This document shows positions 7,625 through 26,483 of a DNA stretch of 34,814 nt, piece by piece (position 1 is the stretch's first letter; each line of letters opens with the position of its first letter). A model generated the notes under the pieces. The model made no database searches. It was not told where the DNA came from and saw nothing but the letters and a program-made list of their open reading frames with translations. Source of the stretch: a virus; IMG/VR virus record IMGVR_UViG_3300044638_007647, positions 1 to 34,814 of that record; one strand, 5' to 3'. Made by a program: the position numbers and the translations under genes.

Positions 7625-9518
7625 AAAAACAGTATTAATTCATTCTAATTTTTGTAAAGCTTTTACTGGCTTTGGTAAAAATAAAAAAAATATTCTTAGA
7701 TATTTATATTCTACAGAAAAATATAATATAGTAGAAGCAGCTAATGGTTTAAGTTTTAAAAACAATACAACTGAATCTACTCCCTGGACATGTTATGGTA
7801 CTCTTCCTAATCAATCCGTTCTTAATGGTTTAAATCAAGATCAATTAAGATCGGTTGGTTATGGTGGATTGTTAATAGATGAAATTATAAACATTACCAA
7901 ACCTGATGTCTATATAGGAATTGAAGATATATGGGCATTTAGTGATTTTCATAAAAAATCATGGTGGAACAATATTAATTGTATGATTTGGACAACTTTA
8001 GATAGTTTACCAATACTACCACAAGCGATTGAATACGCTCCTAAAATAAAAAATTATTATATATGGTCTTCTTTTGCTGAAAAAGAATTTAAAAAAATCG
8101 GCTATGATAATATTAAAACATTACACGGCTCAATTGAAACAAAAAATTTCTTTAGATTAAGTGATGAAGAAAGGTTGAAATTAAGAGAAAACAATAATCT
8201 TGATCAAGATTCATTTATCATTGGTTTTGTATTTAGAAATCAATTAAGAAAATCAGTACCAAATCTATTAGATGGATTTAAAAAATTTAAAGATAAGAAT
8301 CCAGATATAAAAGCAAAATTACTTTTACACACTTATTGGCAAGAAGGTTGGGACATAACAAGACTTCTTGAAGAAAAAGGAATAGACAGTAATGATATCA
8401 TTACTACATATGTATGCAATCAATGTGGAAAATATGAAATAAAAAAATATGTAGGCGAAAATCAAAACTGTAGATTTTGTAAATCAGAAAAATCTTCAAA
8501 TACAACTAATGTATCATATGGAGTTTCAGAAAAACAACTTAATGAAATTTATAATTTAATGGATGTATATTGTCATCCGTTTACTAGTGGAGGTCAAGAA
8601 ATACCCATTCAAGAAGCTAAATTGACAGAATTAATTACTCTTGTTACAAACTATTCTTGTGGCGAAGAAAACTGTACAGAAGAAAGCGGTGGCATACCAT
8701 TAAATTGGCATGAATATAGAGAACCTGGCACTCAATTCATAAAGGCATCTACAGATGCGTCATCAATCGCTGAAAACTTAGAGAAAGTTCATAAAATGAC
8801 TTCTGAAAAAAGAAGTGCAATTGGATTGATTGCTAGGCAGTGGGTAATTGATAATTTTTCTGTAGAAGCAATTGGTAAAAAATTAGAAGAAATTATTGAT
8901 AATATGCCCGAACATAATTTTGATTTTTCTCAAAAAATTCATAAGCTTAAAGAAGAATACACGCCTTACAAGAAGGAAATGTCTATAGATGAATTTGTTA
9001 TCGATATACATAAATATATTTTAAATGAAGACATAGATAAAAACTCTTCATCTTTTAAACAGTGGAAAAATAAATTAATAAATAATGAAATTGATCATAA
9101 TAAAATGACTGAACATTTTATTAATTTAGCAAAACAACAAAATAATAATGAAAAAATAGATTTTGCTTCAATGTTTTCTAGTGAAGATGAAAATAAAAGA
9201 ATTGCTGTTTTAATCCCTCAGTCAGAGACAGATGTGTTTTTGATCAATTCTTTAATTAAAAATTTAAAAAAACAATACCCAGAATACAATATATATATAT
9301 TTACATCTCCTAAATATTTTGAATATATAGAGGATAATCCATACGTATATAAATGTTTACCATATTCAGAAAGCCTAGACAACTTTACTATATTAGAGGG
9401 AATTGGAGAAAACAAAGGATTTTTTGAGATGGCTTTCTATCCATGTATTACTACTCAAAAAAACGTATCATACATACATAACGGAAAGAATAAAAATCAA
9501 TTTTCATTATATAATTAA
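7614..9518 (+). CDS. GT-B glycosyltransferase (GT4-like) with zinc-ribbon insert and GT9-like C-terminal Rossmann half
   Basis: A 634-residue protein. Residues 1-430 look like a GT4-type GT-B enzyme that moves a sugar from a nucleotide-sugar donor. The C-lobe strand FIIGFVFRNQLRKSVPNLL is followed by the donor-site motif HPFTSGGQEIPIQEA, with Glu329 and Glu334. Between them are two CxxC pairs (Cys268/271 and Cys286/289), a likely zinc-ribbon insert. Residues 526-634 start a second Rossmann unit (KRIAVLIPQSETDVFLINSL) like the N-lobe of ADP-heptose-type GT9 enzymes; its matching C-lobe is in the next gene. The ATG at 7614 is chosen over an upstream in-frame TTG at 7575 because only the ATG puts the first strand (TVLIHSN) at the N-terminus. 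Acceptor unknown; phage DNA, virion protein or host envelope are possible. Confidence 0.75.
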   Translation: MKNKKTVLIHSNFCKAFTGFGKNKKNILRYLYSTEKYNIVEAANGLSFKNNTTESTPWTCYGTLPNQSVLNGLNQDQLRSVGYGGLLIDEIINITKPDVYIGIEDIWAFSDFHKKSWWNNINCMIWTTLDSLPILPQAIEYAPKIKNYYIWSSFAEKEFKKIGYDNIKTLHGSIETKNFFRLSDEERLKLRENNNLDQDSFIIGFVFRNQLRKSVPNLLDGFKKFKDKNPDIKAKLLLHTYWQEGWDITRLLEEKGIDSNDIITTYVCNQCGKYEIKKYVGENQNCRFCKSEKSSNTTNVSYGVSEKQLNEIYNLMDVYCHPFTSGGQEIPIQEAKLTELITLVTNYSCGEENCTEESGGIPLNWHEYREPGTQFIKASTDASSIAENLEKVHKMTSEKRSAIGLIARQWVIDNFSVEAIGKKLEEIIDNMPEHNFDFSQKIHKLKEEYTPYKKEMSIDEFVIDIHKYILNEDIDKNSSSFKQWKNKLINNEIDHNKMTEHFINLAKQQNNNEKIDFASMFSSEDENKRIAVLIPQSETDVFLINSLIKNLKKQYPEYNIYIFTSPKYFEYIEDNPYVYKCLPYSESLDNFTILEGIGENKGFFEMAFYPCITTQKNVSYIHNGKNKNQFSLYN

Positions 9519-9520
9519 TT

Positions 9521-10669
9521 ATGTCTCACCTATTAGAAGAATATGCTAAAAGCCTTGGTGTTTATATATCAAAGCCAATTGTATCAAAACATTATTTTCC
9601 AATCTGTGAAAATAAATATATTACAATTCATTTAGAAGATGATATACAATCAAAAAAATATAAATACTATCATATAGTTTTAAGTTTATTAAAACCATTT
9701 TTAATAGAACAAAATATTAAAGTATTTCAAATAGATTGTAAATCAGAATATATTGATAATATAGATAAAGGTCTTTCAAATTTAACCTTTAGACAATATG
9801 CTTATATAATATCCAAATCCATATTACATATAGGATCTGATAATATTTATTCTCATTACGCAAGTTCTCAAAACGTACCAATAATAAATATATTTGGGAA
9901 TGTATACCCATCTGTATCCAATGGTTATTGGTCGAAAAAACATGAAAAAATAGATATATGTCCAGAATGGAAAGTCAAACCATGTTTAAGTTTAAATGAC
10001 CCAAATGAAGAAATTAATAATATAAAACCAGAAGAAATAGCTCAATCTGTTCTAACCCTATTAAAACAAAATAAAAAAATAAATTTTAAAACTATTCATA
10101 TAGGTAAATTATTTAATAATAAAATTATCGAAGTTGTGCCGCTTAAAAATTTTAATAATTCATTAAATAAAAATCAAACAATTTTTATAAGAGCTGATTA
10201 CGGTTTTGATGAAAATATATTTTTGCAATATTGTAAAAATTATAAAGTAGCTATTATTTGTGACAAATTAATTCAATATTCCGCTTTATCATTAATTAAA
10301 AATAATATAGAAAAATTATCATTTTTAATTGATAGAAATACAGAAGATATACCAGATAGATATATGGAAATCTTAAAAGAATTTAAAATTAATTTTGAAA
10401 TTTTGGTAAAAAATGAAGAAGATTTGTCTCTTATAAGAAATAAATATTTTGATCAACAAGTTAATTTATATAAAATTAATAAAAATAAGCCTGATTTTAT
10501 CAAACCAAATTTAAAATTTTTCTCCAATAAGCTTTTAATAGAGGGGCATAATTCTTATGCAAGCAAGGCTCATTGGTTAATTAATGAAAAAATCATTGAC
10601 AAAAATATGAATATATTAGATACTCTTGAATACTGGAATGAATTAGAACATTTTTATATTTATGAGTAA
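9521..10669 (+). CDS. GT9-like (heptosyltransferase-type) C-lobe protein
   Basis: A 382-residue protein. Residues 1-190 resemble the C-terminal half of GT9 enzymes. A strand YITIHLED opens the domain, and TFRQYAYIISKSILHIG then SHYASSQNVPIINIFG match the donor-binding region usually read as SxxELAALIxxAxLxIGxDSG...HxAAALGxPxVxLFG. The expected N-lobe is at the end of the preceding gene, two bases upstream in another frame, so together they could make one GT9 enzyme from two chains. The remaining 190 residues carry a further alpha/beta domain (TIFIRADYGF) that I do not recognise. The ATG follows the previous stop directly, so translation by re-initiation is likely. Whether the pair is active cannot be told from sequence. 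Confidence 0.65.
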   Translation: MSHLLEEYAKSLGVYISKPIVSKHYFPICENKYITIHLEDDIQSKKYKYYHIVLSLLKPFLIEQNIKVFQIDCKSEYIDNIDKGLSNLTFRQYAYIISKSILHIGSDNIYSHYASSQNVPIINIFGNVYPSVSNGYWSKKHEKIDICPEWKVKPCLSLNDPNEEINNIKPEEIAQSVLTLLKQNKKINFKTIHIGKLFNNKIIEVVPLKNFNNSLNKNQTIFIRADYGFDENIFLQYCKNYKVAIICDKLIQYSALSLIKNNIEKLSFLIDRNTEDIPDRYMEILKEFKINFEILVKNEEDLSLIRNKYFDQQVNLYKINKNKPDFIKPNLKFFSNKLLIEGHNSYASKAHWLINEKIIDKNMNILDTLEYWNELEHFYIYE

Positions 10670-11486
10670 AATTAAACAAAAACAAGCAACTGAAGAATCT
10701 CAAGTTCAAAATTCTACAGAAGAAGATGTAATTAAAAGTCCATTTGAAAAATACTCTAGAAATCAATACGGATTATTGAATAGCGTAGAATATCATTTTA
10801 ATGATGATGGTTCAATTAATTGGAGGAAAATGATTAAAAATGAATTCCTCTACCCCAATAAAGGGTGGTTTGATTTAAGAAAAAAAGAATTTCCTAATTC
10901 TATTGAAGGTCTAGCAGATAATCAACTTTTAATCATGCTTGGAGGTATTAAAGAATTAGCCAAATTGCGCGGATTTACTGATGTAGCATACGAAGTCTCT
11001 CACATTAAAGAAGATTATATTGTAGCAAAATGTCAAATCACTTGGATTGGAAATTATGAAACAAATGATAGATCTATTCTTTTCGAGGATGTTGCTAATG
11101 CAACTATTAAAAACACCGATGATTTTTGCATTAAATTTTTAGAAACAATTGCTTGTAATAGGGCTTTTGTTCGTTGTGTTCGTAATTTTCTGAATATTCA
11201 TATTGTAGGAGCAGATGAAATTGATAAATCAAAAAATTCAATAGCAGTTAGTTCCGAAGACATGTCTTACGATTCTTCAATTATTCCGATTACTCCAGTT
11301 GGAATCTTAGAAAAAACAATGAGAGATAAACATGGTGTAGTTGAATTTGAAGATTTTAAAAATATTCTAAGAGATTTGTGGACTTCTGATAAATATAGAA
11401 ATGAAGAAGTGAAAACTTGGAAGAGCTTTTCTGATATTCCCGCAAAAGAAGCTAGAATTATTTTAACATTAATTAGTTCAAAATGA
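10662..11486 (+). CDS. Candidate Rad52/Erf-like single-strand annealing protein
   Basis: A 274-residue protein. Its core (about 65-185) has a helix LADNQLLIMLGGIKELAKL, beta strands (DVAYEVSHI, YIVAKCQITWI, SILFEDVANAT) and a helix ETIACNRAFVRCVRNFLNI. That last helix resembles the AETRAxxRALRxxLNI pattern of phage Rad52/Sak/Erf-type annealing proteins. The first 40 residues are polar and look disordered; the last 65 form a helical tail. Annealing proteins promote recombination-dependent replication and would fit beside a phage replicase. The match is one of pattern only, so a different DNA-binding role is possible. It overlaps the preceding gene by 8 bases and the next by an ATGA. Confidence 0.45.
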   Translation: MSKIKQKQATEESQVQNSTEEDVIKSPFEKYSRNQYGLLNSVEYHFNDDGSINWRKMIKNEFLYPNKGWFDLRKKEFPNSIEGLADNQLLIMLGGIKELAKLRGFTDVAYEVSHIKEDYIVAKCQITWIGNYETNDRSILFEDVANATIKNTDDFCIKFLETIACNRAFVRCVRNFLNIHIVGADEIDKSKNSIAVSSEDMSYDSSIIPITPVGILEKTMRDKHGVVEFEDFKNILRDLWTSDKYRNEEVKTWKSFSDIPAKEARIILTLISSK

Positions 11487-11938
11487 TTAAAAGAATTTTA
11501 AATACTGAAGATTTTAAACAAGCTGTAAATGATATATTTGATTTACATGAATTTGAAAACGAGAATCATGGTCATTTCTTTTTAAAACACAATAAAGAAA
11601 CAATTTTAAATTGCTTAAATCATAAGCATTTATTGGCTTGGGATTTTTTTGTTTGGGCTAATTTTAATGGAAATAATTATGACGCAATAATTGCTTTCCT
11701 AAATGATAAGAATGTTAAATTTGGAGAATCAATATTTACAGAATATATTTGGCTTTCAAAAAATCCAAAAGTAGGTTATAAATTATTTAAAGAAGCTTTA
11801 AATTTCGCAAGAGATAAAAAATTTAAATATATTATGATGAACTCGGTATGTAAACACCCAAATTCCGATCAAGTTAAAAATTTTTATAAAAAAATGGGTT
11901 TTGTAAAAGATACAGAAACATTTATTGCAAAATTATGA
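11483..11938 (+). CDS. GNAT-like N-acetyltransferase-fold protein
   Basis: A 151-residue protein with the closing elements of the GNAT fold: a helix KVGYKLFKEALNFARDKKF, a strand YIMMNSV, then SDQVKNFYKKMGFVKDTETF, the typical neighbour-to-C-terminus pattern in which a residue-rich helix leads to a kinked MGF strand. The acetyl-CoA pyrophosphate loop Q/RxxGxG/A is only weakly represented by NPKVGYK, so activity is uncertain. Start and stop overlap neighbours by ATGA, placing it in the same operon as the annealing-like protein. A second, more diverged GNAT-like gene lies at 26482. Confidence 0.62.
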   Translation: MIKRILNTEDFKQAVNDIFDLHEFENENHGHFFLKHNKETILNCLNHKHLLAWDFFVWANFNGNNYDAIIAFLNDKNVKFGESIFTEYIWLSKNPKVGYKLFKEALNFARDKKFKYIMMNSVCKHPNSDQVKNFYKKMGFVKDTETFIAKL

Positions 11939-12102
11939 ACAATAAAACAGCAAAAAAAATAAGATCAATATTTCCCAATGATGATGAAATATCTCGTCGA
12001 GTTTATAGGCGTTTAAAAAAACAATATAATAAATTATCAGAAAAAGCTAAACCTATTTTTCTAGAAAACGCTAAAAGACTTTTAAATGGACAAGAAGAGT
12101 AA
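11935..12102 (+). CDS. Small basic hypothetical protein (55 aa)
   Basis: A 55-residue reading frame starting with an ATG that overlaps the GNAT stop (ATGA) and ending TAA at 12102. The product is lysine/arginine-rich (RRVYRRLKKQYNKL, KRLLNGQEE) and predicted helical throughout. Its placement in a chain of overlapping genes and the absence of any alternative gene in this interval support it. It resembles small basic phage proteins of unknown role. Confidence 0.6.
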   Translation: MNNKTAKKIRSIFPNDDEISRRVYRRLKKQYNKLSEKAKPIFLENAKRLLNGQEE

Positions 12103-12295
12103 TGATTGGAATTCTAAAAAAATAGGATCTTTTTGGATTAAAAAAACAAAAACAGATAAACAATATCTTTCTGGAAATATAGAAATAAAATTAAAAGACG
12201 GATCTTCTCAAAAAATTTTTATATCAATTTATAAAAATGATTTCAAAAAAGATTCCAATCCAGATTTTAATGCATATCAAATAGAAGTTTTATAA
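12086..12295 (+). CDS. Small beta-rich hypothetical protein (69 aa)
   Basis: Sixty-nine residues with the pattern IGSFWIKKTKTDKQYLSG, strand IEIKLKDG, strand KIFISIYKN, and DFNAYQI. Short phage proteins of this layout (a GxFW..K..YLSG opening and a closing NPDFxxYxI) are common near replication genes and somewhat resemble DUF736-type proteins; their function is not established. It overlaps the preceding small gene by 17 bases. Its last 19 bases also overlap the 3' end of the opposing fibre-like gene, so the two operons meet tail to tail without a terminator. Confidence 0.65.
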   Translation: MDKKSNDWNSKKIGSFWIKKTKTDKQYLSGNIEIKLKDGSSQKIFISIYKNDFKKDSNPDFNAYQIEVL

Positions 12296-14628
12296 AGTTT
12301 ATAAGATGATGGTGGATAATCGGTGTTAGCTAATAAATAAATATTATCTACATCACCAGATATTGAATAATCTATAAATGAATTATCACTAATAGCATAT
12401 TCTGAAAAAGATATACCAGTTCTACTTAAATCCAAACCTACTGTATTATCTACTACCATTAATTTAGATGAACAAAATTGTCCAGAAGCATCTTTAAATT
12501 GAGTAGTATATTCATAAGAATGATATAAATTTTTTGGCATTATATCGATAATTTTATTTCCAGAAGATTCAATTAATCCAGTTACCAAATTAACTAATGT
12601 TGTAGCATCGCCAAGTGTTAATTCTAATAATTGTGTAGATATTTTAGATATTTCTGGTGGAGTTTGGTATATGTTATATGGACCAATCTCCCAGCCATGA
12701 CCTTTACCTAAATCGCTAAAAGGAACAAGTTTAAACCAATAATCAGTATAAGGTTGTAATTTTATTTTTTCTAATCTAAAATTATAATTTTTTGTATTTG
12801 ATATTATTGGTACGCTTTTAATAAAATTATCTTCTTTTTCAACCACTCCACTCAAATCAGATGCATATATATCAATTCTATTAAAAAATGTATATGATGG
12901 ATCATTTCTAAAAATTAAATCAAAATCAAGATAACCAGTATTTATATCTCCAATCTGTTTTATGCCATTCTGTCTCAATCTGTGCGGCAAAAGAAATTCA
13001 TGATATTTTATTAATTCTAGACCAGTACTGCTTATTCCACTATAGTATAATTTAATATTTTTTGTATGATCATTTATACCACTATATTGATGAGACGAAG
13101 AAAATATATAATAATTTCCATCAATACCTGTTGGACTCATTAGATTATATAAATATTCGTTATTTATATCTGTTTTATACTGCACAACCCCAGAACCAGA
13201 ATATCCATCAACAAAACCATCGTTTTGTTGAAAAATAAGATCAATATTTGAATCGCCCCAATCAATTAATAAAGACTCTTGAGTTGTTCTGCCAAAAGTT
13301 AGATTACCTTGAATAGTTAAATTAGAACCACTTAAAGTTAAGTCGTAATTAGGAAAATATAATAAATTATCACTAACAAATTGCAAATATTCATTTTGTT
13401 CAGTTTCATGATAAGGATAATATTTTTGATATCCAATTGGGTCTTCATTATACCAGTAGCCAGAGCCATCTCTAACATAGATTTGATCTATATGAGATTC
13501 ATTTCCGTATACAAATATTTTATTATTATGTATGTTGCTGTTTTCATTATTTATTTTTATATCAACACCAAAATTATGCTTGTATTCTCCAAATATATTT
13601 ATATTTTCTTCTTCTGTTAAAGTAAATTGTTGTTGAAATGAATTTGAAATATAATTTTGGTAAATAATATTTCCTTTTTCATCTAAAATATCCACATCAA
13701 TCCCTTGTACATAAGGGTTTTCTATGATATCCTCTGTTGTGTTTAATTGATTCAAATCTCTATCTAAAAGAGTCAATGAAAATGTAACATCTTTTTTTGT
13801 ATGAACCGCTACGCCAGTATTTATAATTGACAAATCACCAGTATTTACATCAAGTATTGCATCAAAATTATTAATTGGTTTTAAAGTATATTTGTCATAA
13901 TCAATTGATCCTGATAAACCTAGTTCATATAATAATGGAGATATAGGTATCTCTACTCTTTTGACTAAAGAACTTGCGGGGCTTATGCCTTGACTCGCTG
14001 GCTGAGGATTAATGACATAGTAATCAGATTTATTATTAAAATCAATCACCAAAGATGCTGGACCAGATCCACCGCCACCAGGAAACCAGTCAGCATGGCA
14101 ATCTATAAATATTTTATCTGATATAACTCCAGATCTATAAGCTTTATCTATATCAACAAGAATAATTTCTGGCCCTTTTGATGTATTGTCTGCAGTTATT
14201 TGCCATAAATAATCCCCACTATAATTTCCATATGTCCCAGGGACATTATAACCTACAGATTCTTGTCTTTTGGGATCGGGTTGCCTATTTAGATTATAAA
14301 TATATAGATCTCCACTCCAACCAGTACTACTTACAAACCATGGATATGCAACATCTTCAGAAGATATCCCACTATATAGATCTCTTTCAACAACCCATAA
14401 TGATTCTCCACTACTCCAATATATACTACCCAAACCAGTATTATTATAAAAAGCTCTACCATTATAACTTCCAGTTCTCTGATAAATATAATTGCCATCA
14501 TCTAAATAAGCATTAGCATTTTCATCAGTGATAATTATATCTTGATTGAAATAAAATGTTGTTTTAGTGTCTAAATCATTTTTATCGTCTGGCCATTCAT
14601 AGGTAATTTTTATATTAGGTAAAGACAT
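12277..14628 (-). CDS. Tail fibre / tail-tip associated structural protein
   Basis: A 783-residue protein, last gene of the minus-strand tail operon. It is rich in Gly, Ser, Tyr, Asn and Asp and in short beta strands, as in receptor-binding fibres. A Gly-rich linker (GGGGSGP) lies near residue 187, and an FN3-like segment (LQPYTDYWFKLVPFSDLG) near the C-terminal third. There is no N-terminal signal or collagen repeat. It starts 20 bases after the second J gene, so it probably attaches to or extends the J hub. No specific family is recognised. The C-terminal codons overlap the opposing small gene at 12086-12295. Confidence 0.6.
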   Translation of the reverse strand: MSLPNIKITYEWPDDKNDLDTKTTFYFNQDIIITDENANAYLDDGNYIYQRTGSYNGRAFYNNTGLGSIYWSSGESLWVVERDLYSGISSEDVAYPWFVSSTGWSGDLYIYNLNRQPDPKRQESVGYNVPGTYGNYSGDYLWQITADNTSKGPEIILVDIDKAYRSGVISDKIFIDCHADWFPGGGGSGPASLVIDFNNKSDYYVINPQPASQGISPASSLVKRVEIPISPLLYELGLSGSIDYDKYTLKPINNFDAILDVNTGDLSIINTGVAVHTKKDVTFSLTLLDRDLNQLNTTEDIIENPYVQGIDVDILDEKGNIIYQNYISNSFQQQFTLTEEENINIFGEYKHNFGVDIKINNENSNIHNNKIFVYGNESHIDQIYVRDGSGYWYNEDPIGYQKYYPYHETEQNEYLQFVSDNLLYFPNYDLTLSGSNLTIQGNLTFGRTTQESLLIDWGDSNIDLIFQQNDGFVDGYSGSGVVQYKTDINNEYLYNLMSPTGIDGNYYIFSSSHQYSGINDHTKNIKLYYSGISSTGLELIKYHEFLLPHRLRQNGIKQIGDINTGYLDFDLIFRNDPSYTFFNRIDIYASDLSGVVEKEDNFIKSVPIISNTKNYNFRLEKIKLQPYTDYWFKLVPFSDLGKGHGWEIGPYNIYQTPPEISKISTQLLELTLGDATTLVNLVTGLIESSGNKIIDIMPKNLYHSYEYTTQFKDASGQFCSSKLMVVDNTVGLDLSRTGISFSEYAISDNSFIDYSISGDVDNIYLLANTDYPPSSYKLYKTSI

Positions 14629-14648
14629 ATATATATTATACAGTTAAA

Positions 14649-17600
14649 TTAAAGAATTTTTATACTTTTCACAAATGATCTATCATAATTAACAGACGTA
14701 GATCCATCGAACATTATAAATATTCCAGATGAATCGTATTGAGAATCATAATAAACATATTGATTAGATCCAGCATTTGAAGAATTACCTTTAGCATTTA
14801 CGCGTAATGAATAATTGCCCACAGCCCCAACATAATCAAAAAATCCAGTAGATGAAGTATTGATCTCGGAATAATTGCCATTTGGATAGACCAATTTGAC
14901 ATTATAACCTGTGGCTTTAATATCTTTTGTCCATCTTCCGCTAACAATCAATTGTCCATCAACATCAAATCCAGTTGAAAAATATTTAATTTGTGGAGGA
15001 GATAATGTTTCTAAAGTTTTATTATTGATTGTTTGAGTAACTAAATAACTATATGTATTTGATGGCACTTCAATACTAATATTATTTTCTATTAATGACC
15101 ACTTACCAGTACTGTATTTATTAGCTATAATAGTATATTCATTTGGATAATCTTCTATAATTTTCAATACTTTATACAATTGATCATCAGCATTTTTTCT
15201 TTGAAAACGATATGTCGAACCAGGAGATACAAAATTGAGAAGTGAATAATTTATATCATTTTTTGAAATATAAGCCTCACAACCATAATCTTTTATTTCT
15301 ATGCCTGTTACTCCAAAAGTAGTAATTTGTGGGGGATGTATTTGATTTAAATCAGATTGAGTAACAGCCCTATTTGTTGATACAAAATTCAAATCATTAA
15401 TGGACAAATCTCCAGTTGGTGTATAAACTGTAAGTTTATTATCAAAGTCTTCTGAAGAAAAACTTTCATTTAATCTTATACTCCCCCTTGAAGTATCGAC
15501 ATCTAAAATCTTTCCAAAATTAGATTTTAAACTCCTGAGTTCATCTTCTACAATAATCAAGTCACCTGGCCTACATAAAAGAGCTTCTGTTCCAGTAGAA
15601 AATGAAACACTTTCATTTTCTTTGATCGTTTGGTAAATCAAATGCTGACCAATTCTTCTCGCCATCGCTCTTGAGGAAACGCCAGCAGCATTAATAGTTC
15701 TTTTGAAAATACCTCGTATTGCAATATCTTCTTCATCTTCTACATATTCTATTCTGGTTTCAAAATCATTAAATCTATCTATATAAACGACTTCTATAGA
15801 ATTATATTGTTCATCTCTTCTATAATTACTATAACTAAATAAACCATCTTTAACGTTAGCATTCGTAAATAAAGAACTCGCAAGCCTTGGTCTATCATCA
15901 ACAAAATTTATCTCAGAGTTATAGTAATATACTATACCTCTAAAAAGAGCGGCAATAGTGTTGATTGTGTCAAAAATTTTTGATTCTTCTTGGAATAAAA
16001 TGTTACAAGAAAATCTTGGTTCCAATCCGCCAGCTCCATCAGGAACGCCAATAAAATATCCATTATCATCAACTGTATCGCAAAATCTTGCAACTTTATA
16101 AAGCTCCCAAATATCAATTTGAGAAACATCTAAATATTGACCTAAACCATAACGAGTACTTGTTAGTATATCGTATAAAATCCATGCTGGATTATCAGTC
16201 CACTCCAAATCTTCTTTAAATGTCCCATCCCAATCGCCTATATAAATTTGTTTAAACTCTAAATCCGTTGTATCATATTCAGATTTTGTATTAAAATATC
16301 TTTTATCTTTGCCGTTTACATATATTGGATGATAATTACTTGGCACTTTGACCTTCTTTAATTTACAATCATAAATTCTATTAGGAATAGCGGAAAAACT
16401 TCTAGAATCTATTTTTGTACCAATTATTGCTGAAAATGGATAAGTTAAATTTACATCGATGATTTCAGTTATTTTATTTAATTTAACATTTTTTTGTACT
16501 AGCGTTGAATTTGTTTCTGTAGATAATTTTGTTACTTTTACATATCTTCTTTTTATACTTAAATCATAAGCGCTATTTGAAGAAGATTCTATGGATGGCA
16601 AAATAAATGGTTGATTTATCTGCTTACCATCATAAGCTTGAATAAATTTATAATCATTACTTACATAAGGAGTTAATTCAGGATTTCCAATATCAATTAT
16701 CGATGGACTTTCAACTAAGGCTACTATTTGGAATCTATATGTTGATATTTGAGATTTATTTTGTCCGCTCTCATCAGTTAAACCTGTTTCTATTTGTACG
16801 TTTAATATTGCTGGATATTTTGACCCAGCATTTAAATGTTTATCTGTACCATAAAAATTTAATTTTTGTTTTTGTAGAGTATCAAATAAGTTATCAACTT
16901 GAAAAGAGACATAAACACTAGTTACATTTGGGTTTTCGATTATATGAGTAATTGGATTAGCTATTTCATTATAATTATTATCTAAAGTACTCCAATCCGT
17001 AAAACTTTTTCCATCTCTATTATCCAAACTACCTTCAGCTGTTGGTATACCAAAATTATTTTGATATTTTAATAAGTTGTTATTATCGGGTACTTTTTGA
17101 ATCTGATTGAATAATTTAAATGGACCAATCAACGAAGATTGATAAACTTTATCTATTAATACCTTATTAAAAAATCTAAAAGGTTCCTGATACTCCTTGC
17201 CATACCTCACTTCAGCCAAAACATTAGAATAATTATACTTTTGTTCGTAATCTGCTGCTGCAGTGACACTTGCATCTAAATATTTTAATTTTAATGTTGA
17301 TATATCTTTTAAAGTATTGATAGAACTCGTTTTAATAGAAAAATTACTATTAAATGGTTCGATGTCACTTGTAAATGACCCAGGTTGATGCGGTCTACCT
17401 TCAGATCCTTTTATTAAAATTAAATAAAACCCTTGTATTTGTCCAGTAAAAATTCCACTAGCATTAACTATAGGTACAAAAAAATCATAATATGTAATTT
17501 CTCCATTATTAGTTTTTATTCTTTTATTTGAAGAATCTTCAAATACAAACTCAACAAATTTAGTTGAATTAACTGCTGTTGATTTTAAATCTACATTTAT

Positions 17601-18533
17601 AGCAGTAGTAGCACTTGGAGCCTTTAAAAACACTAACATGCTATCATTTAATTTAGTCAAACCACATTTATTAATAAACCAATGATTTGGCAAATCTGTA
17701 TAATTTATCCAATCAACTCCAATATTTCTTTTGAAAATTTTATCTATTAAATCTTTTTGATATACATTACCAGAATTATATAAATTTCTTATTTCTGTAA
17801 AGGAAGGTTTAATATATTCGTTAAAATATTCAGTATAATTATCTTCAATAATCGTCTTCCATAATCCACGCCCTAAGGGCGCGTCATAAAAATACCAATT
17901 TGATAAAGTATTTAAATTATAAAACAAACGAGAATCAGATGTTCTTTTTAAATGATCATGATATTTTGTTGAATTTATATTTGTTTTATCGGAGACTGCA
18001 ATCTCTCGATAAATTGGACCAGGATAACGAGTGCCGCCACCTAAAGGCCAACTATACCACCGCTCTTCTTCGTATAATTTCCCTTGGTCCCATCCTGCTA
18101 TTTTTTTGTATGAAGAATCTAATGCGGAAAGTGGATGTACGACACCAGGTGTTGTATTATTTGATAAATCTGTAAATAAATTTTTAAGTTTAGTTGTGGT
18201 TTCATCTGCCCTAATTGTAGCTAAATTTTGTAAATTAGCTCCTATAGAATCTTGAGAACTTGATTCTGCTGCATCATCATTGCTTACTGCTATAGGCGTA
18301 TTATCTAAATATATTCCTTGTAAAATAGCATCTTTATTTAATAATAAACCATTTTTATTTACTAATCCAGCTATCGGCCCATCACTTATTAGGTCCAATG
18401 TTTCTGCATAACTATATGATGCAGATACTTGCCATTCTCCAATATCTGGTGGCGTTAAAACTGCTGGTTTAACTTCTGGTTTTGATTTTTTACCAGCACC
18501 AGCAATATTAATTTTTTTAAGCAAATGTTTCAT
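14649..18533 (-). CDS. J: Tail tip protein J-like, paralogue 2 (host specificity protein)
   Basis: A 1294-residue homologue of lambda J, the central tail-tip hub that contacts the receptor. The N-terminus holds the family signature SYAETLDLISDGPI (about 41-54). The hub core carries SRAMARRIGQHLIYQ and ALLCRPGDLIIVED (around 970-1000), and the C-terminus ends in an FN3-like domain (LIVSGRWTKD) closing at KSIKIL. It begins one base after the stop of an upstream gene with the same architecture. The two share the first 80 residues and everything from roughly residue 700 on at high identity, but differ strongly between. Both frames are intact, so neither looks like a pseudogene. It could be a second hub subunit, an alternative receptor-binding version, or a spare copy. 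Confidence 0.88.
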   Translation of the reverse strand: MKHLLKKINIAGAGKKSKPEVKPAVLTPPDIGEWQVSASYSYAETLDLISDGPIAGLVNKNGLLLNKDAILQGIYLDNTPIAVSNDDAAESSSQDSIGANLQNLATIRADETTTKLKNLFTDLSNNTTPGVVHPLSALDSSYKKIAGWDQGKLYEEERWYSWPLGGGTRYPGPIYREIAVSDKTNINSTKYHDHLKRTSDSRLFYNLNTLSNWYFYDAPLGRGLWKTIIEDNYTEYFNEYIKPSFTEIRNLYNSGNVYQKDLIDKIFKRNIGVDWINYTDLPNHWFINKCGLTKLNDSMLVFLKAPSATTAINVDLKSTAVNSTKFVEFVFEDSSNKRIKTNNGEITYYDFFVPIVNASGIFTGQIQGFYLILIKGSEGRPHQPGSFTSDIEPFNSNFSIKTSSINTLKDISTLKLKYLDASVTAAADYEQKYNYSNVLAEVRYGKEYQEPFRFFNKVLIDKVYQSSLIGPFKLFNQIQKVPDNNNLLKYQNNFGIPTAEGSLDNRDGKSFTDWSTLDNNYNEIANPITHIIENPNVTSVYVSFQVDNLFDTLQKQKLNFYGTDKHLNAGSKYPAILNVQIETGLTDESGQNKSQISTYRFQIVALVESPSIIDIGNPELTPYVSNDYKFIQAYDGKQINQPFILPSIESSSNSAYDLSIKRRYVKVTKLSTETNSTLVQKNVKLNKITEIIDVNLTYPFSAIIGTKIDSRSFSAIPNRIYDCKLKKVKVPSNYHPIYVNGKDKRYFNTKSEYDTTDLEFKQIYIGDWDGTFKEDLEWTDNPAWILYDILTSTRYGLGQYLDVSQIDIWELYKVARFCDTVDDNGYFIGVPDGAGGLEPRFSCNILFQEESKIFDTINTIAALFRGIVYYYNSEINFVDDRPRLASSLFTNANVKDGLFSYSNYRRDEQYNSIEVVYIDRFNDFETRIEYVEDEEDIAIRGIFKRTINAAGVSSRAMARRIGQHLIYQTIKENESVSFSTGTEALLCRPGDLIIVEDELRSLKSNFGKILDVDTSRGSIRLNESFSSEDFDNKLTVYTPTGDLSINDLNFVSTNRAVTQSDLNQIHPPQITTFGVTGIEIKDYGCEAYISKNDINYSLLNFVSPGSTYRFQRKNADDQLYKVLKIIEDYPNEYTIIANKYSTGKWSLIENNISIEVPSNTYSYLVTQTINNKTLETLSPPQIKYFSTGFDVDGQLIVSGRWTKDIKATGYNVKLVYPNGNYSEINTSSTGFFDYVGAVGNYSLRVNAKGNSSNAGSNQYVYYDSQYDSSGIFIMFDGSTSVNYDRSFVKSIKIL

Positions 18534-18534
18534 A

Positions 18535-21500
18535 TTAAAGAATTTTTATACTTTTCACAAATGATCTATCATAATTTGTAGATATAGCCCCATCAAACAT
18601 TACGAATATTCCAGATGAATCGTATTGGGAATCGTAATAGACATATGGATTAGATGCAATACTTGAAGAATTACCCTTAGCATTTACACGTAATGCGTAA
18701 TTGCCAACAGAGTTTATGACATTAGAATATCCAGTAGATGATATGTTTTCTTGTATATAATTACCATTTGGATAGACCAATTTCACATTATAACCTGTGG
18801 CTTTATTATTACTTGTCCATCTACCACTAATAATTAATTCGCCATTATTATTAAAGCCTGTTGAAAGATATTTAATCTCTGGGGTAGATAATGTTTCTAA
18901 AACTCTTCCATTAATATTTTGAGTAACTTGATAACTATATGTATCATTAGATGATTCAACGCTGGTTCCGTTTTCTATTAACGACCATTTACCAGTATCA
19001 TATTTATTTGCAGAAATTAGATATTCATTTGGATTTTCTTCTGTAATTTTCAATATTTTATATAACTGATCATCAGAATTTTTTCTTTGAAAACGATATG
19101 TTGAACCAAGAGGTATAAATTTAAGAAGTGAATAATTCATATCATTTTCTGAAACATAAGCTTCACAACCATAATCTTTTATTTCTATACCTGTTATTCC
19201 AAAGGTAGTAATTTGTGGTGGATTAGTTTTAGACGATTTAAATAAGTTTTCATTTTGGTTTACTTGATTTAAAGCATTTTCTTCATTTATTTGAGACATT
19301 GTTAATAAACCAGTCGGCGTATAAACTGTAAGTTTATTATTAAAATCTTCAGAAGAAAAGCTTTCATTTAATCTAATAGTTCCATTTAAAGCGTCAACAT
19401 CCAAAATTTTTCCAAAATTAGATTTTAAACTTCTGAGTTCATCTTCTACAATAATTAAATCTCCTGGTCTACATAAAAGAGCTTCAGTTCCAGTAGAAAA
19501 TGAAACGCTTTCATTCTCTTTAATTGTTTGATAAATCAAATGTTGACCGATTCTTCTGGCCATTGCTCTCGACGAAACACCAAGAGCATTTATTGTTTTC
19601 TTATGAGTGCCTCTTTTTAGAATATCTTCCGCATCTTCCACATATTCTATTTTAGTTTCAAAATTATTAAACCTATCAATAAAAATAACTTCTATAGAAT
19701 TATATCGTTCGTTATTAGTATAATTGCTGTAACTAAATAATCCATCTTTTACATTAGCATTTGTAAATAAACTTTTTATAAGTTTTGGTCTATCATCTAC
19801 AAAATTTATTTCAGAGTTGTAATGATAAACCATACCTCTAAAAAGAGCAGCAATAGTATTAATTGCATCAAAAATTTTTATGCCTTCTTGAAATAAAATG
19901 TTACAAGAAAATCTTGGTTCCAATCCGCCAGCTCCATCAGGAACGCCAATAAAATATCCATTATCGTCAACTGCATCGCAAAATCTTCCAATTTGATATA
20001 ATTCCCAAATATCAATTTGAGAAATATCTAAATATTGGCCAAGTCCGTAACGAGTGCTAGTTAATATATCATATAAAATCCATGCTGGATTATCAGTCCA
20101 TTCTACATTATCTTTGAATGTTCCATCCCAATCACCTACATAAATCCTTTTATTTGCTGCTGATGTACTATTAAAATCAGATACAGTATTAAAATATCTT
20201 TTATCTTTACCATTAGCATACCTAGCTTCATAATTTTTAGGTACTTTAACTTTTTTAAGTTTACAGTCATAAATTCTATTCGGAACTGATGAAAAAGTTC
20301 TAGAATCTATTTTTGTGGCAACTATCGCTGAAAATGGATAAGTTAAATTTGTATCAATAATTTCAGTAACTTTATATAGTGATAATGTTTTTTTTACTAA
20401 TGTTGAATTAGTTTCTGTAGATAATTTTTTAACTTTAATATATCTTTTATATTTATCTTCATTTTTTATGTCGTTTATTTTTGGTAATTCAAATGGGTCC
20501 GACATTAAATGACCATTCATAGGTGTGATAAATGAATAATCATTAGCTCTATAATTTCTTAATTCAGGATTACCTATATCAACAATAGTTTGAGATAATA
20601 TTAAAGATACAATTTGATATTGATATGTTTCTATATTTGTTTTATCTCCATCTATATTTATTAAACCTGTTTCAATTTCAATATTTACTATTGCTGGATA
20701 ATTTGAACCAATATCTTTATATACTGGTGTTAAAGATGCAATCTGCGACTGAAGAGTATTTCTTAAAATATTAGCAGAAGCTGGCATTCTCAATTGTATT
20801 GGAGTCATCGCTGTATCATATAATTGATCAATTTTTAAAGATATGAACACGCTATCTACATTTGGATTCTCAATTATATGAACAATTGGATTAGCTATTT
20901 CATTATAATTTTCATTTTTATTATTCCAATTGCCATAATCATAATTTCCCCTGTTATCATTACTTCCTTCATTCACCGCTAAACCATCTAAAGTTTCAAA
21001 AGGATTTGTATTACGACTATAATTGAATTTTTGTTTTATTACATTCTCATCGGCGTATATTTTTTGTATTTGATTATTATTAATTCTAAACGGCCCCAAT
21101 AAGGCACTTTCATAATATTTATCAATATAAATTTTATTAAAATATTGAAATGGTAATTGATATTCTTTACCATATCTAGCTTCAGCAAAGAAATCAGAGT
21201 AATTATATTTTGAATAATAATTATTTGCAAAAGTATTTAGTTTTTGATTTGCTAATGCAATTTGTGTTGGATCTATTTCTATAATTGGATCATTAACTGA
21301 ATCAGTATCTAATCTAGATAGAATTAAAGAATCGGCTCTAGTTAAAATATCTATAGTTGTTCTTTTTAAAGAATAACTTACTACTGCATAATTATAATGT
21401 GTTATAACTGGGGTGGCTGGCCAAACTCCAGCAAATTCAGGCCATGTGTTTCCAGAAGAATCTGCGTGAAAATGATATTTCAATTTTATCATTAAAGCGT

Positions 21501-22749
21501 AACACCCTTTAACTTGACCAGTAAAATATCCGTTTGCATTAATGACTGGGACCAAAAAATCACAATAAGTTATTTCTCCATTGTCAGATTCTAAATTAAC
21601 GACTTGACTATCTTTTAATCTAAATTCTAAATCTCTTACTTGATTATTACTTGAAGTTTGTTTTAAATTTATATTTATACCTAGTTGATCAGCAGGAGGC
21701 TTCATTATCACCAACATCATATCATCATTAGTATTTGTTAATACATATTTATTTATAAAAGTATTAGTTAAATCATTTACGGTTAAAGACAACCAATTAT
21801 CTCCAATTCTTCTTTTAAATAATTTATTTATATAATCTTTTTGATATACATTGCCAGAATTATATAAATTTTTTATTTCTGTAATATATGTAGTCAATGT
21901 GGATGAATGTAGATTCCATCTACTAATATCGAAAAAACCCATGCCAGCTCGCGCGCGTTTATTTGCAAGAGGACCACTACCCATTCTAGCAACTGGAGTT
22001 CCGTAACTTATTCTAAGTCCAAAATCATTAAAACTTAAAGTATTATCATTAGTTTTTTTGATAATTGTATTTGGAAAATATGGATTAACTATAGGTACTG
22101 TAGTGGTATTTTGTATATTTAATTGCTCTAATTTATAAACAGCTCCGCCATTGATAACGTCCTTTCCTTGCGAGTTGGTTGCTCTAGTTATACCCCAATC
22201 TCCATTCATATGTATTCTATTGGTAGTTTTATACATATTATTATCAAATCCAGCCCCCGTAGTATAACCATATAAAGCCCAAACCTGTCTCGCAGCAGCC
22301 AGTTCTGATGGCGCTGTTTGTTGCAATGCAAGATCTGGAGCATTTTTTATATTTAAAAAAACATTTTTTATTACTTCGGCTGTTTTTGTTTTATCTAAAA
22401 CATATTCAGTAAATAGCGGTTCTTGAGGAATAGGATCAATACCACCCACATTAAAATCTAAACTAACAGATGAGGCCGCTTCAGCTTCAGCATTATTAGG
22501 TTCTTGGACTACAGTTCCATCAAGATAAATACCTTGTAAGATAGTATTATTCGTTAAAACTAAACCATCTTTATTTACCAAGCCTTCAATTGGCCCATCG
22601 CTTATTAGATCTAATGTTTCTGCATAACTGTATGATGCAGCTAAATTAATTTCGCCATATATAGGAGGATTTAATGAAGCAGGTTTAACTTCTGGTTTTG
22701 ATTTCTTGCCAGCACCAGCAATATTAATTTTTTTTAATATATGCTTCAT
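18535..22749 (-). CDS. J: Tail tip protein J-like, paralogue 1 (host specificity protein)
   Basis: A 1404-residue lambda J homologue. SYAETLDLISDGPIEG (about 41-56) is the family signature. SRAMARRIGQHLIYQ, ALLCRPGDLIIVED (around 1080-1100) and DGLFSYSNY mark the hub core, and an FN3-like domain closes the protein. It lies in the expected order L-K-I-J and its ATG overlaps the I stop as ATGA, so this is the positional J. It is 110 residues longer than the second copy, with the difference in the variable region before about residue 800. It is longer than lambda J (1132 residues), which fits extra domains in that region. Known J proteins trimerise at the tail tip and determine host range; that role is inferred here. 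Confidence 0.92.
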   Translation of the reverse strand: MKHILKKINIAGAGKKSKPEVKPASLNPPIYGEINLAASYSYAETLDLISDGPIEGLVNKDGLVLTNNTILQGIYLDGTVVQEPNNAEAEAASSVSLDFNVGGIDPIPQEPLFTEYVLDKTKTAEVIKNVFLNIKNAPDLALQQTAPSELAAARQVWALYGYTTGAGFDNNMYKTTNRIHMNGDWGITRATNSQGKDVINGGAVYKLEQLNIQNTTTVPIVNPYFPNTIIKKTNDNTLSFNDFGLRISYGTPVARMGSGPLANKRARAGMGFFDISRWNLHSSTLTTYITEIKNLYNSGNVYQKDYINKLFKRRIGDNWLSLTVNDLTNTFINKYVLTNTNDDMMLVIMKPPADQLGININLKQTSSNNQVRDLEFRLKDSQVVNLESDNGEITYCDFLVPVINANGYFTGQVKGCYALMIKLKYHFHADSSGNTWPEFAGVWPATPVITHYNYAVVSYSLKRTTIDILTRADSLILSRLDTDSVNDPIIEIDPTQIALANQKLNTFANNYYSKYNYSDFFAEARYGKEYQLPFQYFNKIYIDKYYESALLGPFRINNNQIQKIYADENVIKQKFNYSRNTNPFETLDGLAVNEGSNDNRGNYDYGNWNNKNENYNEIANPIVHIIENPNVDSVFISLKIDQLYDTAMTPIQLRMPASANILRNTLQSQIASLTPVYKDIGSNYPAIVNIEIETGLINIDGDKTNIETYQYQIVSLILSQTIVDIGNPELRNYRANDYSFITPMNGHLMSDPFELPKINDIKNEDKYKRYIKVKKLSTETNSTLVKKTLSLYKVTEIIDTNLTYPFSAIVATKIDSRTFSSVPNRIYDCKLKKVKVPKNYEARYANGKDKRYFNTVSDFNSTSAANKRIYVGDWDGTFKDNVEWTDNPAWILYDILTSTRYGLGQYLDISQIDIWELYQIGRFCDAVDDNGYFIGVPDGAGGLEPRFSCNILFQEGIKIFDAINTIAALFRGMVYHYNSEINFVDDRPKLIKSLFTNANVKDGLFSYSNYTNNERYNSIEVIFIDRFNNFETKIEYVEDAEDILKRGTHKKTINALGVSSRAMARRIGQHLIYQTIKENESVSFSTGTEALLCRPGDLIIVEDELRSLKSNFGKILDVDALNGTIRLNESFSSEDFNNKLTVYTPTGLLTMSQINEENALNQVNQNENLFKSSKTNPPQITTFGITGIEIKDYGCEAYVSENDMNYSLLKFIPLGSTYRFQRKNSDDQLYKILKITEENPNEYLISANKYDTGKWSLIENGTSVESSNDTYSYQVTQNINGRVLETLSTPEIKYLSTGFNNNGELIISGRWTSNNKATGYNVKLVYPNGNYIQENISSTGYSNVINSVGNYALRVNAKGNSSSIASNPYVYYDSQYDSSGIFVMFDGAISTNYDRSFVKSIKIL

Positions 22750-23441
22750 GTATTTATTAATTTTCTCGACAAAATCTGTGAAGAATTAGAATCTAAACCA
22801 CCAATATTAAATTGATCTTGTGTATAAGCATCTCTTGTATCCCTAGATTGTTGATAGGATTTAATTGAAAACTGAATAACTTGAGCGCCAACTTTTAAGC
22901 GTCCATAACCGAATGGTACTGGCGAACCTTGATTAGCTAAATTTACTTTATTAGAAAACATAAAAGATTCCTCTAACGCTTTTGTGGATGCTGATGCTTG
23001 AGAGCTTGTGCTTTCATTATCAGCTAATAAATACTGTAAACCAAGTGATACAGCACTTAAAATTAAACCACCAACAATTTGTGATGCCAACATGGACGAT
23101 GTAAATACTGTTGCAGTACCAATACCAATTCCAGCTAATCCAGCACTAATACCTGTTAAAACAGCTGCACCAATAGCTGCACCAGAACCAACAATCATAG
23201 GGACCAAATGTATTTCTTGTGGTGTATTTTTAATATCTAATTCAGATATATCTTGAATTTTTTGGTTATCAATAATTATTGTATAATTTAAACCCTCTCT
23301 AGATAATTCATTTATTCTATTAATAAAATTTTTCTTATTAACGTCGATAGCCTTTAGAATGTATTTAGTTCTATTTAAATTTAACTTTAAATTTTCACCA
23401 AACTCTTTTCCCAAAATACCATGTAAAGTAATATTTGTCAT
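22746..23441 (-). CDS. I: Tail assembly protein I-like (TipI)
   Basis: A 231-residue homologue of lambda tail assembly protein I. Residues 1-80 are a small ubiquitin-like/beta-grasp-type region, followed by a long Gly/Ala-rich hydrophobic stretch (83-139, GSGAAIGAAVLTGISAGLAG and on), and then the family hallmark GSPVPFGYGRLKVGAQV (172-188). Lambda I is needed for tail-tip assembly but is not found in the finished virion; a similar role is inferred. The gene sits between K and J as in lambda, with ATGA overlaps at both ends, so the stoichiometry is probably set by coupled translation. Confidence 0.88.
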   Translation of the reverse strand: MTNITLHGILGKEFGENLKLNLNRTKYILKAIDVNKKNFINRINELSREGLNYTIIIDNQKIQDISELDIKNTPQEIHLVPMIVGSGAAIGAAVLTGISAGLAGIGIGTATVFTSSMLASQIVGGLILSAVSLGLQYLLADNESTSSQASASTKALEESFMFSNKVNLANQGSPVPFGYGRLKVGAQVIQFSIKSYQQSRDTRDAYTQDQFNIGGLDSNSSQILSRKLINT

Positions 23442-23845
23442 AATCTTTCCTTAACCCTTTCTAATATCTTTACATCATATTCAGAGTTTTTAGGTTGATA
23501 AATTTGAATTTTTTTTGTATTTAAGCTATATATCAAAAATGGTACACAACAATTTTCAGACATTTTAATATCAAATTCTGATGCACTTTCATCTCCAGTA
23601 ATATGACTATGGAATATTGCAACAATAGAATTTTTTTGTTTAAAAAATAAATATCTTAATGCGTCAATTGCAAAAAAGTTTTGAGGATCTGCCGAGCAAT
23701 TTTGCTCAAGTTGAACTACATATTTTTTTTCATCAATATTAAAACCTAAAAATCCGCAAATCTCCATGGATGGATGAAAATCCGCCCAATGTTTAATTTT
23801 ATTTAAAGCGTCTATTATTTTTCTATATTTATAAATATTATCCAT
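23438..23845 (-). CDS. K: Tail assembly protein K-like JAB/MPN metallopeptidase (no NlpC/P60 domain)
   Basis: A 135-residue Mov34/MPN/JAB protein. The JAMM zinc motif is complete: Glu28 in SMEICGF, then HSHITGDESASEFD with His79, His81, Ser89 and Asp92 in the HxHx7Sx2D spacing. Lambda K joins a JAB domain to an NlpC/P60 peptidase; only the JAB half is present here. The gene lies between L and I in the standard order. I start it at ATG 23845, which overlaps the L stop by 8 bases (ATGGATAA). A longer frame open to 23956 would add 37 residues of low-complexity sequence out of keeping with the family; ATG 23857 is also possible. It probably processes a tail component or cell-wall material. Confidence 0.85.
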   Translation of the reverse strand: MDNIYKYRKIIDALNKIKHWADFHPSMEICGFLGFNIDEKKYVVQLEQNCSADPQNFFAIDALRYLFFKQKNSIVAIFHSHITGDESASEFDIKMSENCCVPFLIYSLNTKKIQIYQPKNSEYDVKILERVKERL

Positions 23846-26483
23846 AACTAAATCCATCTGTTCCAGGAAATCCACCAAAATGTAAACTTGAATTATTAAC
23901 TGTTTTTGTCCTTGAAACAGTTTCATTTTGTGTATATGTAATTGTTTCTGTTCCAAAAATACCTGATATTTGCAGGGGGTACAAATCTTGATGCGTATCT
24001 ATAATTTGTGATGAATTTTCAGCATCAATTTGCATATCCCACCAAGCTATTAATGAGTTATTAATAATATTAGGCGTACTTTGTAAACATTCTTCATATT
24101 GACTAGGATATTTTACAGCTCCAATTGTTTTTATTAATGCTTGTTTTTCTGAAGTTATTAATTGACGACCCCATAAAGCCCAAGATGCTATTCTTCCATT
24201 TAAAGATCTCAATGTTTTATTTGGCATATGAAAAGAATTACCTAAAATTAAAGCTTCTGGTCGAAAACTTAATAATTGATTCTTATTAGATGATGTAAAT
24301 GAATGTTGAACTGTATTATTAATCTCTATCTGAAAAGAATCAGTGCCATTTAAATCAAAATTTGGATGTTTATATCCAATTGATGTGGTTTTATTATATT
24401 TTTTTGTATAAATTCCATTTTCTAACTGAGCGCCAGAAATATAAATACCACTAGAACCATCTCCGTAATCTCCCGAAATATCAAAAACAATAGATTGATT
24501 TATATTATATGGATCAGATGAAATTTTACCAGTTGTATAAATTGGAGAAGTGACACCAGGCAACGGTCCAAAATCTACTTTAACTAAACATCTACCAGCT
24601 TGATTACTATTATTGACAGTATGTTTTACTCTGAACCAGTCATTTTCTATTTTTTTTATTTCTGGGAAATAATAATCTGTTTGAGTATGATTAAATATAC
24701 CAGTCGCATTCAAATCATAAATAGAAAATCTATCTAAATATTTTTCTGGGGTTCCAGGCAAATACTCTCTACTTTTAATATAAAAAAATCTATAAGAATT
24801 TGAATCAGGTTTTTTAACATGTATTGAAAAATTAGTAGCAACAGCATTAGCTTGCCAAGAACTGCTTAATGAAAAATCTGCTCTAATGTATGAATCTATA
24901 TTGAAATCATCTTTATTTTCAATTGATGAAGATTTTAAACCATTTGTTGGTTGCATCAATTCGCCAGTAATGTCATCAGTTACTGTACAATTATTTTTTG
25001 TCCAAGTGTTTGCAGTAAAATTTTCAGAATTACGCAGATAATTATGAGGTGATGATAAATTTCTTTTAGCAGTAATTAAAACATGCACATCAGAATTAAA
25101 GTCCACAGTTCCAGCAAGTTCATTTTTTATTGAATAATTAGGTATTAACTTTGAATTGGTTGCTGTTTGATCATCTATTTTATAATGAAGATTTAAATCA
25201 TCTTTTGTAGCATCTTTATCCCAAGTATTTAAATTAAAAGATTCGATATTATCTAAAAATCTATTTGCAGTAGAAGCTAAATTACCACCTGGATAATTAT
25301 TAGTGTTTTTATCTTCTTGTGTTGGTGATAATGTAGTTCCAACAATGCCAGCTCCATTAATAGAATTAAAATCTTTAACCCATCCAGCTAATGTAAAATT
25401 TGAATCAAAAGTCTCCAATAAATTATCGTCATTACTATATAACATACCGATTTTACTATTAGCCGCATCACCACTAAATCTAATAAAATCTTCGGTTTTA
25501 GATGATTGAAATGTTGTATATTTTACAGCTTGAGCATTATTAAATCTTAACTTACATGCAGATATTTTTTTAGTGCATCCATCTTTTTGCCAGTAAGTTG
25601 GATTACTTTCTGGATGTTCCCCCTTAGTAGAGTTTTTAACACAAACATACCAATTTTTCATTGTAGTTGGTCTTAAATTTGTCTCCAATTCAGCGCTTAA
25701 TATAACTTTTGGATTTTCTAAATAAGCTATATTGCCTTGATTATATGTTTTTGTTGGACTCCAAGCGTAATTTGGATTTGAGTCAAGACCATTTAATGGT
25801 ACATTCTCTGGTACAATGTTAGTTCCAGCAGAATTTACAAAAGGCGTTCCATCCTCTCTTTCAATCGGCAATCCTTTATAATTACATCCTTGACCCCTAT
25901 ACTGCCAATAACAATACTTTGCTAAAATTTTTCTATGATTAACTTCGAAATTCTCCAAATCTAAAGGGGAAGTTAATTCAAATTCAACATAATATTTATT
26001 TTCAGTTGTTTTTTGGCCAATAAGATATTCTTCATTACTAATCTCGGCGGTATAATCTTGACTTCCAAATGGATTGCCACCATCAAAATTTAAATCATCT
26101 ATATATTTTAAAAAAGTTCTTTTTCTAACAAATTTAGCATTTTTAAAATCTTTATTGTTCTGAAGTAGACTTGTAATTAAATAATCTTTATTCGCTATCC
26201 TTATTTTTGGCCTTGCTAATTGACCATTTCCATTTATTTCAAAACCTTCTGATTCAAATGGTACAGGTATATATTGAATGTTTTGCCAATATAGATTATT
26301 TTCAAAAACCGAACCATTATGAATTGGTATGTATGTTGTAGGTTTATTGATTGTGTCTGGATATATTCTAAAGAATTCCAATATAGCTGTTGGCTGAAAA
26401 TCCAACAAACTTCTTGCAATTTTATCTTGTCCTTGACCCATATTTAAATTTACACTATTATTGATATAATAATCTAAATGCAT
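23838..26483 (-). CDS. L: Minor tail protein L-like, with Fe-S cysteines and LamG-like extension
   Basis: An 881-residue protein whose first 315 residues match lambda L (232 residues). Cys191 and Cys200 (KYCYWQYRGQGC) and Cys303 and Cys310 (DGCTKKISAC) repeat the lambda spacing of nine and seven for the [4Fe-4S] cysteines. About 100 residues are inserted between the pairs, including a CBM5/12-like piece (SPTKTYNQGNIAYLE, NWYVCVKNSTKG, NPTYW). After KLRF, a LamG/concanavalin-like domain starts (about 333-380, FTLAGWVKDF) and resumes at about 755-785 (GRIASWALWGRQL). Between these lies a phage carbohydrate-binding-type module opening NYLRNSENFTANTWTKNN (481-498). It would cap the tail tube near J and may bind surface glycans. 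The start codon overlaps that of the divergent gene at 26482. Confidence 0.88.
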   Translation of the reverse strand: MHLDYYINNSVNLNMGQGQDKIARSLLDFQPTAILEFFRIYPDTINKPTTYIPIHNGSVFENNLYWQNIQYIPVPFESEGFEINGNGQLARPKIRIANKDYLITSLLQNNKDFKNAKFVRKRTFLKYIDDLNFDGGNPFGSQDYTAEISNEEYLIGQKTTENKYYVEFELTSPLDLENFEVNHRKILAKYCYWQYRGQGCNYKGLPIEREDGTPFVNSAGTNIVPENVPLNGLDSNPNYAWSPTKTYNQGNIAYLENPKVILSAELETNLRPTTMKNWYVCVKNSTKGEHPESNPTYWQKDGCTKKISACKLRFNNAQAVKYTTFQSSKTEDFIRFSGDAANSKIGMLYSNDDNLLETFDSNFTLAGWVKDFNSINGAGIVGTTLSPTQEDKNTNNYPGGNLASTANRFLDNIESFNLNTWDKDATKDDLNLHYKIDDQTATNSKLIPNYSIKNELAGTVDFNSDVHVLITAKRNLSSPHNYLRNSENFTANTWTKNNCTVTDDITGELMQPTNGLKSSSIENKDDFNIDSYIRADFSLSSSWQANAVATNFSIHVKKPDSNSYRFFYIKSREYLPGTPEKYLDRFSIYDLNATGIFNHTQTDYYFPEIKKIENDWFRVKHTVNNSNQAGRCLVKVDFGPLPGVTSPIYTTGKISSDPYNINQSIVFDISGDYGDGSSGIYISGAQLENGIYTKKYNKTTSIGYKHPNFDLNGTDSFQIEINNTVQHSFTSSNKNQLLSFRPEALILGNSFHMPNKTLRSLNGRIASWALWGRQLITSEKQALIKTIGAVKYPSQYEECLQSTPNIINNSLIAWWDMQIDAENSSQIIDTHQDLYPLQISGIFGTETITYTQNETVSRTKTVNNSSLHFGGFPGTDGFSYG

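Follow-up and report, generated by a model that had tools for sequence, protein, structure and literature searches.

Tandem paralogs of the tail-tip hub gene J in an uncultured siphophage, diverging in an inserted hub module

The DNA analyzed here (the window) is a stretch of 34,814 nucleotides, positions 1 to 34,814 of the IMG/VR virus record IMGVR_UViG_3300044638_007647. A tail-tip gene cluster lies on its minus strand in the order L-K-I-J1-J2-D (Table 1), which keeps the L-K-I-J order and contains two J genes arranged head to tail. The first-pass annotation had described two intact J frames in tandem, and this description is exact: both are uninterrupted open reading frames, of 1404 and 1294 residues, and a single base separates the stop codon of J1 from the start codon of J2 (TAA-T-ATG). 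Both proteins belong to the J family by their matches to Pfam PF13550 (Phage-tail_3) and PHROG 31 (‘central tail fiber J’), and they are 56% identical to one another over their full length (BLASTP, E=0); they are full-length within their own phage family, not by comparison with lambda J. The plug protein gene I is present in a single copy upstream of the pair and overlaps the start of J1 by 4 nt, while D, downstream of J2, encodes a protein of 783 residues. Homologues of D in related phages vary from under 600 to 2,971 residues and one of them (L010) has a C-type lectin domain (4.5e-6); these features, and the position of D next to J in most relatives, make D a likelier distal receptor-binding fibre than J.

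Table 1. Coordinates of the tail-tip genes and of the J1 and J2 segments in the window.
Feature	Position	Strand	Remarks
L, minor tail protein (in lambda: hub partner supplying HDI)	23838..26483	-	PF05100 1.1e-37; PHROG 18 7.5e-50
K, JAB-domain peptidase-like tail assembly protein	23438..23956	-	Prok-JAB 1.1e-6; PHROG 30 1.8e-16
I, plug protein	22746..23441	-	PHROG 32 tail assembly protein 1.2e-29
J1, first J paralog; tail-tip hub protein	18535..22749	-	1404 aa; ORF; PF13550 1.1e-20; PHROG 31 1.7e-112
J1 inserted module, residues ~81-535	21145..22509	-	without lambda J counterpart; lambda J 82 aligns to J1 538
J1 hub core, residues ~769-1150	19300..20445	-	82% identical to J2; dN/dS 0.15
J2, second J paralog	14649..18533	-	1294 aa; ORF; PF13550 3.4e-19; PHROG 31 3e-118
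J2 inserted module, residues ~81-453 (corresponding, divergent)	17175..18293	-	L009 J 85 aligns to J2 430
D, putative distal fibre / receptor-binding protein	12277..14628	-	adjoins J in about 60 relatives

A number of further features surround the J pair. The L gene, as called, overlaps K by 119 nt at its 3' end and encodes 881 residues, of which only residues 63-214 match the PHROG L profile; the L proteins of the close relatives L009 and L011 have 317-325 residues, which points to a large C-terminal extension of L in the window. A glycosyltransferase/acetyltransferase cassette (7154-11938) adjoins the tail-tip genes, and its gene order is repeated in many relatives; a search of the cultured phage collection gave no match for the window glycosyltransferase. 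A 366-bp tandem repeat (28205-30169; 5.4 copies, 91% matches) lies within an 870-residue open reading frame (27987-30599) that perhaps encodes a repetitive fibre-like protein. The adjacent gene at 30612-31635, labelled ‘ferredoxin’ by PHROG 3704, has matches of up to 70% in Synechococcus phages, to regions annotated as PurM or hypothetical; a SET-domain gene comes next, and a SET or methyltransferase gene is found there in some of the matched Synechococcus phages too. As the window also encodes a DNA polymerase III alpha subunit and a ClpA-like ATPase, besides the glycosyltransferase and the SET-domain protein, the 34.8-kb record probably covers only part of a larger phage, with the remainder of the tail outside its limits.

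The similarity of J1 and J2 is unevenly distributed. Their N-terminal and C-terminal halves had been described as shared, and this is the case for residues 1-80 (78% identity) and for the C-terminal ~640 residues, but not for J1 ~81-530 and J2 81-448, which are divergent. Identity reaches 82% in the hub core and 69% in the C-terminus, and falls to only about 25% between J1 81-290 and J2 81-250, which are essentially unalignable. J1 80-290 had no BLAST match to any other J among 114 Js, nor had J2 81-250 to any other J. Structure comparison equates J1 538-799 with the FNIII-A domain of lambda J (residues 82-207; Z 12.2, 125 residues), and the J2 model (pLDDT 61 overall) aligns over residues 27-882 with lambda J 11-364 (Z 14.0, rmsd 5.3 over 341 residues, 26% identity). 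From these matches, the divergent region of both proteins is an insertion of about 370-455 residues placed just before the position of FNIII-A, where lambda J has none. In the lambda hub, the plug protein gpI is bound by FNIII-A, which is part of the HDII-insertion (PMC10721106). Natural Js that do not have the insertion occur in L009 and L183-L185, and these proteins are 945-958 residues long. When single-J phages whose cores are 94-99% identical are compared, conservation is in most cases lowest in the first part of the insertion. This first part is modelled with pLDDT mostly between 25 and 37, while the second part forms a confident alpha/beta region; no receptor-binding fold was identified in the insertion, for which the first-part models are of low confidence and the listed structure matches fall mostly on the neighbouring FNIII-A-like sandwich.

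The J2 model, together with a profile match of residues 659-1016 to lambda J 179-508 (E 5.8e-63), indicates a hub-domain fold like that of lambda J. The family profile match ends near residue 705 of the 1132 residues of lambda J, and some 45 residues of J2 follow that point; J1 and J2 are therefore of lambda type in their hub part and end after the FNIII region, without the C-terminal shaft, straight fibre and receptor-binding domain.

Lambda-type siphophages normally carry a single J, which forms the trimeric hub. Scans of IMG/VR and GTDB genomes gave nearly 200 J loci, and most relatives of the window conform to this pattern: about 60 viral relatives with both neighbours visible have one J in the order I-J-D, and of 25 records searched in full, two of them MAG genomes and the others virus records of at most 148 kb, only L192 and L197 had a second J. 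The single-J relatives do not carry a broken second copy. Among about 100 related phages, a search for tandem pairs found two Js in two other lineages only, L192/L201 and L197. L192 (3300043548) and L201 (3300043424) are contigs from two metagenomes that share 7.25 kb without a difference and have the order J-I-J-D; L197 has the order I-I-J-J, with two very divergent Js of which the second is cut by the contig end. L053, L190 and L137 were rejected as double-J loci, as each has a single J split over two open reading frames. Two divergent adjacent I (plug) genes precede J in five contigs (L056:3352-4702, L068:3306-4597, L197:2112-3381, L199:8092-9257 and L200:5760-6796), with two Js in L197 and one visible J in the other four; the single J-type open reading frame of L056 (L056:4702-14292) encodes 3,196 residues, more than twice the usual length. 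The J-like places in the cultured phage collection number 1,559, spread over 1,555 records (core alone: 1,558 over 1,554), so that up to four cultured records have a second J-like place and may provide a cultured-phage precedent for a double J. A literature search mostly confined to non-subscription journals found no precedent for a duplicated J.

A tree built from 101 hub cores makes J1 and J2 sisters with support of 100/100, a placement that is subject to the caveat that gene conversion can give paralogs a sister appearance. The two Js of L192 are also sisters (100/100), in another supported clade. Their separate supported clades and the gene order, J-J as against J-I-J, suggest that the window pair and the L192/L201 pair are probably the products of separate duplications. 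One shared ancient duplication is disfavoured by the same clades and gene order, although concerted evolution may, with lower probability, have masked such an origin. Acquisition of J1 or J2 from another phage is unsupported, each being the other's closest relative.

Substitution patterns between J1 and J2 differ sharply along the gene, with dN/dS of about 0.15 in the core and 0.47-0.67 in the insert and its flank. By contrast, dS is similar across the alignable segments (0.5-0.9; about 0.6-0.7 in the core), which argues against a freshly homogenised core. There are 24 identical codons in a row at J1 929-952, and the signal of exchange is weak; a permutation test for gene conversion that might have homogenised the core recently was only borderline (P 0.03-0.06), and this reading was set aside. 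The two copies have 16 and 15 unique changes on symmetric branches, and these counts, with the low core dN/dS, are indicative of constraint on both: neither copy looks to be decaying, and a pseudogene at either position was ruled out on this evidence. The pair would be best accounted for as a lineage-specific tandem duplication of which both copies have been kept.

Taken with the focused divergence, these results lead us to propose that J was duplicated, that both copies were kept, and that alternative or mixed J trimers may present two forms of a recognition module carried on the hub, a reading to which we give a probability of roughly 0.5. In this scheme J1 and J2 would both be made from one operon and translated in tandem; they would fill the same three positions of the hub, in competition or as a mixture, sharing the L ring and the I plug, and their common C-terminus would dock the same downstream fibre D. 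Through such competition or mixing, virions would carry one inserted module, the other, or a mixture of both on the hub, and surface recognition would be widened or hedged while the injection machinery stayed constant. We count in favor of this reading the intact tandem arrangement and the independent contigs that span it, the sister relation of the two Js, the focused divergence in the insert, the constrained core, the location of the insert next to a domain that touches gpI in the lambda hub, the natural Js that have no insert, and the same divergence pattern in L192/L201. The first-pass interpretation is supported in part. That the two proteins have two receptor specificities, as had been suggested, is only plausible, because the divergent part is a hub insertion and not a C-terminal receptor-binding domain of the lambda kind, which is absent here. 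We are more tentative about, and lean somewhat against, the wider proposition that duplication of the central hub has occurred repeatedly in a group of uncultured siphophages, with a single genome giving rise to alternative or mixed trimers that differ in a fast-evolving hub-borne recognition module; if this were true, the injection machine itself would vary, rather than the peripheral fibres.

A heteromeric hub built from J1 and J2 is a candidate arrangement, and in its obligate form the two proteins would have divided their labor, either in a defined mixed trimer or at two distinct tail-tip positions. Both proteins are intact and equally constrained, their core identity is high enough for mixing, and double-J and double-I arrangements recur in the wider group, including the I-I-J-J order of L197. 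We nevertheless consider an obligate heteromer unlikely, since in lambda the three J positions of the hub are identical and go with a single L/I set (PMC10721106), L and I are each encoded just once in the window, one J suffices for nearly all relatives, and a fixed 2:1 or 1:2 mix would break the three-fold symmetry. It is likewise doubtful that the duplicate is an evolutionary way station, either serving mainly as a recombination reservoir for J alleles or in the course of being lost, with little effect on the single virion. The long identical stretch in the core hints at occasional exchange, and duplications are present in few lineages while most relatives have one J; against this, the exchange signal is at the borderline given above and neither copy has any sign of decay despite the depth of core dS. 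Although the likeness of J1 and J2 could mislead an assembler, and the 3300044675 assembly is interrupted within J1, an assembly artefact or a chimera of two single-J strains is highly improbable, as the junction is spanned by independent contigs from two other metagenomes (L001 from 3300044675, window 11822-20845, 99.99% over 9,024 nt; L003 from 3300034062, window 15691-19929, 100% over 4,239 nt), two single-J strains would not be expected to place the J1 stop next to the J2 start, and no close single-J strain was found in scans with the J1 or J2 protein.

The prevailing picture of the central hub is of one uniform trimer. The maintenance of two hub paralogs, with apparently separate origins in related phages, would imply that the hub can vary among the progeny of one phage. 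It would also suggest that host interaction has an overlooked site in the inserted hub domain, which lambda does not have. The double-J phages make it possible to test directly whether three-fold hubs tolerate mixed subunits.

Comparison with lambda gpJ (PDB 8IYK, 8K35, 8XCG; PHROG 31) reveals the same hub scaffold, the same L-K-I-J gene order and an equivalent of FNIII-A. Lambda gpJ continues into an alpha-helical shaft, a straight fibre and a C-terminal receptor-binding domain that contacts LamB (PMC11101478), whereas J1 and J2 have none of these; the window, in turn, has two copies of the gene and the insertion before FNIII-A. The single-J relatives in IMG/VR (L008, L186, L181, L010, L011, L070) have hub cores 66-71% identical to those of the window, the L-K-I-J-D order where it is visible and, in several cases, the same downstream glycosyltransferase cassette, but a lone J wherever the genes on both sides are visible. 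L192/L201 is similar to the window in having two intact Js, 65% identical, that diverge in the same region and conserve the core, within the same flanking gene cassette; it differs in the second I between the Js and in the position of its pair elsewhere in the tree. Phages K1-5 and SP6 carry dual tailspikes, and thus two receptor-binding proteins. They resemble the window in encoding two recognition proteins together, a role that is putative for J1 and J2; their recognition proteins, however, are peripheral spikes or fibres, while here it is the central hub that is duplicated.
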